Below, piece by piece: positions 13,282-14,903 of a stretch of DNA of 64,000 nt (positions within the stretch are counted from its first letter, which is position 1; each line of letters starts with the position of its first letter). The notes below the pieces were generated by a model. That model did not search any database and was not told the origin of the DNA. It saw nothing but the letters and a program-made list of their open reading frames with translations. The DNA is taken from the NCBI GenBank assembly GCA_024277115.1, contig JAJRVW010000119.1, positions 1-64,000 of the forward strand, given 5' to 3'. The position numbers and the translations under genes are program-made. This DNA is from Calditrichota bacterium. GTDB lineage: Bacteria > Calditrichota > Calditrichia > Calditrichales > J004.

Positions 13282-13785
13282 TTTTGGCCGGCATTTTTGA
13301 TATATATGAGCAATCGAATAGAAATAGATTATCTTTAAACTATTAATCAATCAGCTAAAATAGTTCTCAATTTTGGTTTTATGTAATTTAGCGTAGGTGA
13401 TTAAATTGAGTCCTTAATCATACTCATACTCGCTTTTTAGTTTTAAAATATTGAATAAGTAAACTTTTAGTTGTATACCTAATAGATTTATAAAGTTTTT
13501 CGTTGGTATGCTTTGTTTTTCCTTTTTGAAAGTTATGTAAAAGCGAGTCCCAATTAAAATCATCGAGGATTTTAAATAAGAGTAAGATAAAGATTATGAG
13601 AAAGAATTAAATACCTAAAAAATTGGTACTATTTATTAAATACAAAACTATATCTACACTATTCCATATCGAGGCGACAAAAAACATATATCCTCCAAAA
13701 CTAAAAAAACCGGTAAAAAATTACCGGGCTCAGTATGCCGATTATCTAAAATAAGGTAAAAGAATCGCGCATGGCTTTCAGCTCA

Positions 13786-13842
13786 GTCCCAAGGGGATTT
13801 GAACCCCTGTCGTCCACGATGGAATCGGGATATCCTAGACCT
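13786..13842 (-). repeat. tRNA-Glu 3' fragment, copy B
   Basis: Reverse complement GGTCTAGGATATCCCGATTCCATCGTGGACGACAGGGGTTCAAATCCCCTTGGGAC; T-arm identical to the tRNA-Glu at 14542-14614, no 5' acceptor strand. Confidence 0.75.
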
Positions 13843-14089
13843 CCTCCAAGCCAAAAGTTTTCAAGGTTTGAATTCTGCTTTTTAGTTTCTTAATTCTTTT
13901 TTCTTCTTTCATGGCTTCGGCTCGTGTATTGAATGATTTGTAAGCAAGAAGTTTCCATGGCATACGTTGTTTTGTGTATGTACATCGTCCTTGGTTATGA
14001 TAATTATTGACCCTTTCTTGAACGTCATTGGTCTGCCCAACATAATAGGTGCCAAACTTTATCGACTCGATGAGATAGACATAAAACAT
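13835..14089 (-). CDS. Small GIY-YIG nuclease, copy B
   Basis: MFYVYLIESIKFGTYYVGQTNDVQERVNNYHNQGRCTYTKQRMPWKLLAYKSFNTRAEAMKEEKRIKKLKSRIQTLKTFGLEEV. Confidence 0.85.
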   Translation of the reverse strand: MFYVYLIESIKFGTYYVGQTNDVQERVNNYHNQGRCTYTKQRMPWKLLAYKSFNTRAEAMKEEKRIKKLKSRIQTLKTFGLEEV

Positions 14090-14189
14090 GAAAGTCTCCA
14101 AAACTAAAAAAGCCCGGTAAAAAATTACCGGGCTCAGTATGCCGATTCTCTAAAGTCGGGCAAATGAATCGTGCATGGCTTTCAGCTCA

Positions 14190-14246
14190 GTCCCAAGGGG
14201 ATTTGAACCCCTGTCGTCCACGATGAAATCGGGATGTCCTAGACCT
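14190..14246 (-). repeat. tRNA-Glu 3' fragment, copy A
   Basis: Reverse complement GGTCTAGGACATCCCGATTTCATCGTGGACGACAGGGGTTCAAATCCCCTTGGGAC. Confidence 0.75.
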
Positions 14247-14493
14247 CTTCCAAGCCAAATGCTTTCAAAGTTTGAATTCTGCTTTTCAGTTTCTTAATTT
14301 TTTTTTCTTCTTTCATGGCTTCGGCTCGTGTATTGAATGATTTGTAAGCAAGAAGTTTCCATGGCATACGTTGTTTAGTGTATGTGCACCGCCCATGGTT
14401 ATGATAGTTATTGATCCTTTCCTGAACATCATTGGTTTGGCCAACATAATAGGTGCCAAACTTTATCGACTCAATGAGATAGACATAAAACAT
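14239..14493 (-). CDS. Small GIY-YIG nuclease, copy A
   Basis: MFYVYLIES...NDVQERINNYHNHGRC...LKAFGLEEV; nearly identical to copy B. The longer listed ORF (to 14691) reads through tRNA genes, so ATG 14493 is used. Confidence 0.85.
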   Translation of the reverse strand: MFYVYLIESIKFGTYYVGQTNDVQERINNYHNHGRCTYTKQRMPWKLLAYKSFNTRAEAMKEEKKIKKLKSRIQTLKAFGLEEV

Positions 14494-14509
14494 GAAAGTC
14501 TCCAAAACT

Positions 14510-14540
14510 AAAAAAGCCCGGTAAAAAATTACCGGGCTCA
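14510..14540 (-). terminator. Terminator of the tRNA operon
   Basis: Minus strand GCCCGGTAA TTTT TTACCGGGC TTTTTTAG. Confidence 0.75.
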
Positions 14541-14541
14541 G

Positions 14542-14614
14542 TAGTCCCAAGGGGATTTGAACCCCTGTCGCCGCCGTGAAAGGGCGGTGTCCTAGACCCC
14601 TAGACGATGGGACC
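14542..14614 (-). tRNA. tRNA-Glu (TTC)
   Basis: GGTCCCATCGTCTAGGGGTCTAGGACACCGCCCTTTCACGGCGGCGACAGGGGTTCAAATCCCCTTGGGACTA. Confidence 0.93.
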
Positions 14615-14648
14615 GTAAATCTTTTAATTTCTATTTTCACCTTACTAA

Positions 14649-14724
14649 GGGTGAGTGATGGGAATTGAACCCACGACCCCCAGAGCCACAATCTGGTGCT
14701 CTAACCAACTGAGCTACACCCACC
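14649..14724 (-). tRNA. tRNA-His (GTG)
   Basis: GGTGGGTGTAGCTCAGTTGGTTAGAGCACCAGATTGTGGCTCTGGGGGTCGTGGGTTCAATTCCCATCACTCACCC. Confidence 0.93.
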
Positions 14725-14737
14725 ATAAACATTGTTG

Positions 14738-14811
<74 letters not shown>

Positions 14812-14828
14812 TTATGCCCAAATCAAAG

Positions 14829-14903
14829 TCGGGGTGAGAGGATTCGAACCTCCGACCCCCTGCTCCCAAGGCAGGTGCGCTAACCGGGCTGCGCTACACC
14901 CCG
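14829..14903 (-). tRNA. tRNA-Pro (TGG)
   Basis: CGGGGTGTAGCGCAGCCCGGTTAGCGCACCTGCCTTGGGAGCAGGGGGTCGGAGGTTCGAATCCTCTCACCCCG. Confidence 0.93.

Follow-up and report, generated by a model that had tools for sequence, protein, structure and literature searches.

The tandem GIY-YIG units that follow a tRNA-Glu gene in a Calditrichota bacterium of the class Calditrichia are, on balance, probably copies of a minimal, homing-like selfish element that occurs only at tRNA loci; a hairpin-bearing copy of the tRNA (hairpin-tRNA) would be its modified target. The predicted element consists of a GIY-YIG gene, encoding 80-95 aa in this subfamily, just downstream and sometimes upstream of an intact tRNA gene, together with a truncated copy of the same tRNA. 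Such elements occur in several bacterial phyla and apparently form an undescribed class. The evidence comes from the architecture of the units, their recurrence, the fidelity of nuclease lineages to tRNA isotype, the patchy occupancy of one site, selection on the ORFs, and the conservation of the hairpin-tRNA.

Results

The tRNA-Glu locus and its tandem units

The window, the whole stretch of 64,000 nucleotides analyzed here, contains a Pro-Arg-His-Glu tRNA operon on the minus strand (14541-14903) with tRNA-Glu as its final gene, as located by ARAGORN. Two tandem 404-bp units, 93% identical over 300 nt, lie 3' of the tRNA-Glu terminator and are followed by the remnant of a third:

14541..14614 (-), intact tRNA-Glu(ttc), found by ARAGORN and by an Rfam tRNA match
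14515..14538 (-), terminator 1, AGCCCGGTAATTTTTTACCGGGCT plus a T run, separating tRNA-Glu from ORF 1
14239..14493 (-), ORF 1, 84-aa GIY-YIG nuclease with intact catalytic columns, its stop codon within the tRNA-like piece
14189..14248 (-), hairpin-tRNA 1, truncated tRNA-Glu copy (~14 nt of tRNA, hairpin, tRNA positions 45-72)
14217..14234 (-), foreign hairpin TCCCGATTTCATCGTGGA of unit 1, substituting for the anticodon arm
14111..14134 (-), terminator 2, a copy of the operon terminator
13835..14089 (-), ORF 2, 84-aa GIY-YIG nuclease, 95% identical to ORF 1
13785..13844 (-), hairpin-tRNA 2
13813..13830 (-), foreign hairpin TCCCGATTCCATCGTGGA of unit 2
13676..13734 (-), third-unit remnant with terminator copy (13707-13730), leader and four ORF codons

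An earlier note on this DNA had described minus-strand modules of ~404 bp with near-identical GIY-YIG ORFs, each ending inside a tRNA-Glu-derived piece, and both descriptions were borne out: the two ORFs match the Pfam GIY-YIG family (PF01541; 1.4e-15 for ORF 1 and 1.9e-15 for ORF 2), the stop codon lies inside the tRNA-Glu-like piece in both units, and a GGAG motif stands 5' of both ATG codons. The third unit had been called an ORF-less remnant; spacer, terminator and start-side sequence are indeed kept, but an ORF start is also present, with its ATG at 13687-13685, and ends after the four codons ATG TTT TTT GTC (13676-13687). Likewise, the tRNA-Glu copy had been said to run from the D-arm to the 3' end. 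It matches tRNA positions 17-27 and 45-72 exactly, apart from one mismatch at position 26 in unit 2, but the anticodon arm is replaced by TCCCGATTTCATCGTGGA, a hairpin with a 7-bp stem and one bulge.

A search of the window's genome with the 404-bp unit found no further site. Contig C236 of the same genome bears another, independent element, built alike, at tRNA-Pro(cgg); there the D-arm is replaced by a hairpin and the 3' part of the tRNA is identical over 51 nt. Two annotation traps accompany these loci: a mechanical 150-aa ORF starting at TTG (14239-14691, minus strand) spans tRNA-His and tRNA-Glu and runs into the nuclease, and C-termini can be translated from tRNA copies, for example GVAPPDRNGGAHRSGR in locus L033.

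The nuclease and its relatives

Residues Y5, Y16, G18, R26, H31 and E63 are invariant in an alignment of 34 sequences, which places the protein in the GIY-YIG superfamily. The window protein comprises little beyond the catalytic domain and has no recognisable DNA-binding domain; its best PDB matches are UPF0213 (1zg2, 5e-19) and SLX1. It is less close to phage homing endonucleases, with a weak and partial PHROG match (0.00088, residues 1-32 only), and a tblastn search for a phage source among phage records returned only four weak partial matches. On these grounds membership of the SegB family was rejected, and the likeness to SegB drawn below concerns the supposed way of working, not family membership. 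Lower-scoring GIY-YIG paralogues (loci L201-L222), which many of the same Calditrichia genomes carry, lie away from tRNA genes.

The two window ORFs differ by 14 synonymous and 4 nonsynonymous changes (dS 0.311, dN 0.021), and neutral duplication is rejected because of the resulting dN/dS of ~0.07. Both ORFs are under purifying selection, the copies having been retained as functional proteins since the duplication. When the window ORF is compared with that of the sister genome G001, synonymous sites are saturated (dS above 2).

Hairpin-bearing tRNA copies

At most loci of the subfamily, partial copies of the adjoining tRNA lie near the ORF and are interrupted by a hairpin in one or two places, while the intact tRNA itself is uninterrupted. 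The place of the hairpin depends on the isotype: the anticodon arm in Glu and Val, positions 37-47 in Asn, the T-arm in Asp and Cys, the T-loop in Thr, Leu and several Ser, the anticodon loop in Ser-cga and the D-arm in Pro. Hairpins of one isotype keep a constant tRNA position, and their sequence varies between genera. The T-loop hairpins of Ser, Leu and Gly, and of Glu in genome G006, sit between GTTC and RA.

The fold of the window hairpin is unremarkable alone (z = -0.98); hairpins from three other loci reach -3.3 to -4.7. Nevertheless, only 1 of its 18 nt differs from G001 despite the saturated synonymous sites of the ORF, and the chance of so small a difference at 70% divergence is ~2e-8. 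Because gene conversion could keep the tRNA-identical flanks, the argument for conservation is built on the hairpin part only. In the seven Asn hairpins all cells (100%) are paired and two inner pairs are changed on both sides, giving a covariation of 0.31 against 0.07 after shuffling, a value that 0 of 500 shuffles equalled. Compensatory change would give this pattern, and so would palindromes acquired repeatedly. The Ser hairpins include some irregular ones.

The copies follow a symmetry rule, obtained with hairpin strings chosen by eye and tRNA matches that were computed. In downstream copies (n = 29) the match left of the hairpin has a median of 13 nt and the right match extends to the tRNA 3' end in 25 of 29, and in upstream copies (n = 10) the left match begins with the tRNA 5' end in 9 of 10 and the median length of the right match is 13 nt. 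The retained core is therefore ~13 nt, hairpin and ~13 nt, a layout that a bipartite protein-binding site would be expected to have.

An origin from dispersed, REP-like hairpins was rejected for G006, where the Glu hairpin occurs 12 times in the tRNA array and once elsewhere. Arrays within one genome carry differing hairpins. The dispersed TCCCGATTTTCGGGA palindromes of G006 have nothing to do with the tRNA hairpins: of 20 that were sampled (L231-L250), nearly all lie in one MITE-like repeat of ~150 bp (GTCAAAGACAATGTATTTTTATAAAG...CCCTCACCCCC...). An intron or other known RNA family was rejected as well, as the Rfam scan of the loci returned tRNAs and one RNase P, with no group I intron around the ORF.

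Recurrence at other tRNA genes and in other phyla

Among relatives, nucleases of the subfamily adjoin, on the same strand, tRNA genes for Glu, Pro, Val, Thr, Cys, Ser, Asn, Asp, Ala, Gly, Leu, Met, Trp and Tyr. The Calditrichia sample comprised 40 genomes plus G040 and G048, mostly drafts with many elements at contig ends, and ORFs were scored with a profile of 34 subfamily proteins. The scores split into two groups. A tRNA gene lies within 300 bp of 43 of the 50 informative ORFs in the upper group (at least 70 bits) and of 1 of the 24 lower-scoring paralogues, itself an upper-group gene truncated by the end of its contig (Fisher 5e-12, uncorrected for shared ancestry and with the profile's own members within the sample). 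All 44 tRNA-adjoining ORFs are on the strand of the tRNA.

Public genomes were searched with a narrow alignment of the Glu proteins. Outside the class, and excluding five matches already chosen for tRNA proximity, 11 of 12 matches of at least 80 bits stand beside a tRNA gene; below 75 bits, 3 of 20 do. New hairpin-tRNA copies accompany 8 of the 12 higher-scoring matches. Among the carriers are Sunxiuqinia elliptica, which has Gly and Met elements, a Bacteroidetes MAG, Uhrbacteria, Magasanikbacteria and an Elusimicrobia MAG. More broadly related GIY-YIG genes lie within 300 bp of a tRNA gene in 22 of 74 cases, against 6 of 129 control windows. Chance proximity to tRNA genes is rejected by these paralogue and flank controls.

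Occupancy of the tRNA-Glu site

The operon query was matched in all 40 Calditrichia genomes. The tRNA-Glu site carries an ORF in ten genomes (G000, G001, G004, G007, G010, G012, G015, G018, G023 and G033), with two ORF-less hairpin-tRNA units preceding the ORF in G015. It is empty in seven (G008, G009, G016, G028, G032, G037 and G038), empty meaning that no GIY-YIG or hairpin copy lies within 220 nt past tRNA-Glu. Five more sites are decayed or ORF-less: G013 has a broken ORF start, G011 and G024 retain pieces, and G002 and G006 have ORF-less arrays. Occupied and empty alleles of a single site are the pattern that marks homing endonuclease genes; the patchiness could stem from gain or from loss.

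The array of G006, a complete 4.98-Mb genome of the same order as the window, has 12 tandem ORF-less hairpin-tRNA-Glu units with terminators 3' of tRNA-Glu (L223, G006:C1:4551900-4556000). At another locus of this genome (L058, G006:C1:3696000-3700500), eight tandem 5' pieces of tRNA-Ser with a D-loop hairpin, ~113 bp apart, are flanked by two intact tRNA-Ser genes. On contig C160 of G004 (L186) the tandem unit includes a whole intact tRNA-Glu gene along with a hairpin copy upstream and the start of a GIY-YIG ORF, which means that the functional tRNA gene itself is amplified; the assembly has an N gap here. On contig C41 of G027 (L176) ~110 bp separate two intact tRNA-Glu(ttc) genes that differ slightly in their D-loops; no GIY-YIG ORF accompanies them.

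Nuclease lineage and tRNA isotype

A tree was built from 61 of these nucleases plus paralogues; it has few columns and many open forks. Isotype changes 13 times over 51 loci on this tree, against 30-42 times in 1000 shuffles, and the genome label changes 44 times. Nuclease lineages therefore follow tRNA isotype rather than genome, across families and phyla. The Glu elements found in family f3 group with Ser elements (SH-aLRT 92 to 99), which suggests a change of target. Isotype clades could in part reflect vertical inheritance of the locus, and no direct donor-recipient pair was found among the loci compared.

Discussion

From these observations we infer cleavage of tRNA DNA, transfer by repair and a role for the hairpin. 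The nuclease would break tRNA genes of the same isotype that lack the element, and repair from an element-bearing copy would install the intact tRNA, the ORF and the hairpin-tRNA together; because an intact tRNA is installed, the essential tRNA would survive. The hairpin-tRNA would be an altered version of the element's own target, most likely protected from cutting by the hairpin, which would replace or split the middle of the target site and leave two tRNA half-sites of ~13 nt at its flanks. A single crossover in the 3' half of the tRNA, between the chromosome and a unit of hairpin-tRNA, terminator and ORF, would produce the downstream layout, and upstream copies would be the mirror case. 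Recombination between the tRNA-derived repeats would create and lose tandem copies. The earlier proposal of a minimal tRNA-associated element is well supported by its many isotypes, several phyla, patchy locus and purifying selection on the ORFs; that account had missed the hairpin, the mirror-image types of copy and the generality of the arrangement.

The closest known system is phage SegB, which T-even phages encode as a free-standing GIY-YIG homing endonuclease (PMC13096335, PMC2988022) and whose cuts have been mapped genome-wide by SITE-seq. In phage T6 the segB gene sits among tRNA genes, and the enzyme cuts within them, with a preference for RAWTSGAAC; its catalysis is required for tandem amplification of a tRNA segment via homologous recombination (PMC13096335). 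Read on the other strand this motif is GTTCSAWTY, the sequence of the tRNA T-loop, and the hairpins between GTTC and RA fall inside it. Both systems place a GIY-YIG gene among tRNA genes of many isotypes, and cutting at a T-loop-like motif within tRNA genes and catalysis-dependent amplification are features of SegB that invite the comparison. In contrast, SegB is phage-borne, whereas the bacterial elements are chromosomal and encode little more than the catalytic domain; furthermore, the SegB papers mention neither a truncated, hairpin-bearing copy of an adjacent tRNA nor fidelity of lineage to isotype (PMC13096335, PMC2988022). The proposed cleavage of tRNA-Glu and spread by repair are consistent with all our observations and with phage SegB.

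Other systems share some features. Homing endonuclease genes, both those encoded in group I introns and free-standing ones (I-TevI, Seg family), have the GIY-YIG core, occupied, empty and decayed sites, and a long bipartite target consistent with the two half-sites seen here; unlike them, the present elements have no intron or intein, the target stays intact upstream of the ORF, and a hairpin-marked partial copy lies on the ORF's other side. UPF0213/COG2827 and Slx1 are nearest in sequence and size among solved structures, but the lower-scoring paralogues in the same genomes are not found by tRNA genes, and in DNA repair Slx1 acts together with partner proteins. Palindromic repeats such as REP and the Rickettsia palindromic elements are short hairpins in or near RNA genes, whereas the Glu hairpin of G006 is nearly confined to its own array (12 of 13). 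The open-access literature searched yielded nothing beyond phage SegB on bacterial tRNA-GIY-YIG elements or hairpin tRNA copies, which is weak evidence that none has been described.

The hairpin might be the active site of the element instead of a scar, a possibility that we take seriously while expecting it to be wrong. The nuclease would recognise and cut the extruded hairpin, and the tRNA flanks would direct the ends by homology into same-isotype tRNA genes, with a logic like that of attC or REP hairpins. In its favour, pairing is conserved as sequence changes (0.31 against 0.07 in the seven Asn hairpins) and a bare catalytic domain would suit the recognition of structure; same-isotype hairpins are also fixed in tRNA position while differing in sequence between genera, and the nearest solved relatives are UPF0213 (1zg2, 5e-19) and the structure-specific Slx1 nucleases. 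However, independent acquisition of palindromes could mimic the covariation, some Ser hairpins are irregular, and the window hairpin is bulged and not significant alone (z = -0.98). Moreover, the T-loop hairpins lie inside the SegB-preferred motif as if they destroyed a cut site (PMC13096335), and for this reason we lean towards a hairpin that hides the cut site. The homing-like reading has its own difficulties: the intact tRNA beside every element keeps the presumed target, so that self-cleavage must be weak or avoided; the nuclease has no recognisable DNA-binding domain to supply specificity; and a hairpin that destroyed a cut site would need no base pairing, yet pairing is kept. If the hairpin signals cutting and the tRNA sequence is the address, a bare GIY-YIG nuclease with a hairpin-substituted tRNA site would define a cross-phylum class, a tentative proposal that we rate as doubtful; such a class would have isotype-specific mobility without a sequence-specific DNA-binding domain.

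A benefit to the host, with hairpin-tRNA arrays acting as decoys or dosage devices against tRNA-cutting enzymes or invading homing nucleases, is improbable. ORF-less arrays do persist (the 12 hairpin-tRNA-Glu units of G006 and the eight Ser pieces between two tRNA-Ser genes), and the hairpin-tRNA stays conserved despite saturation at synonymous sites; but some sites are empty or decayed, making occupancy patchy, and the copies are truncated on one side and unable to fold as tRNA. Passive local duplication of a pseudogene, without mobility or function, would account for units that are tandem and local to one site in the window's genome. It is already contradicted because the same build recurs at other isotypes and in other phyla and because the ORFs are under selection (dN/dS ~0.07 between the window copies), the symmetry of the hairpin copies also speaks against it, and we give it next to no credence; the earlier note had reserved this explanation for a unit found only here and fixed by descent, or for neutrally evolving ORFs, and neither is the picture obtained. 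An intact tRNA followed by a tRNA 3' fragment also resembles the attL/attR layout, and the units could on that likeness be scars of integrative elements using tRNA attachment sites, with the GIY-YIG ORF as passenger. Yet there is no integrase and no cargo, the 404-bp unit having the GIY-YIG gene as its single ORF; the partner that stays constant is this ORF, whose lineage follows isotype, and mirror-image upstream copies do not fit one-sided reconstitution of a tRNA. This reading, too, is already contradicted and most unlikely.

If the reading as a minimal selfish element is right, many tRNA genes across bacterial phyla host such an element, which leaves the essential gene intact and uses it as an address. 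This would explain why small GIY-YIG ORFs adjoin tRNA genes and why tandem tRNA fragments surround them, and would extend the story of phage SegB to bacterial chromosomes. Nuclease lineage, target isotype and target position could then be matched and put to the test within one system, which may also yield a very small nuclease that is isotype-specific or guided by hairpins.
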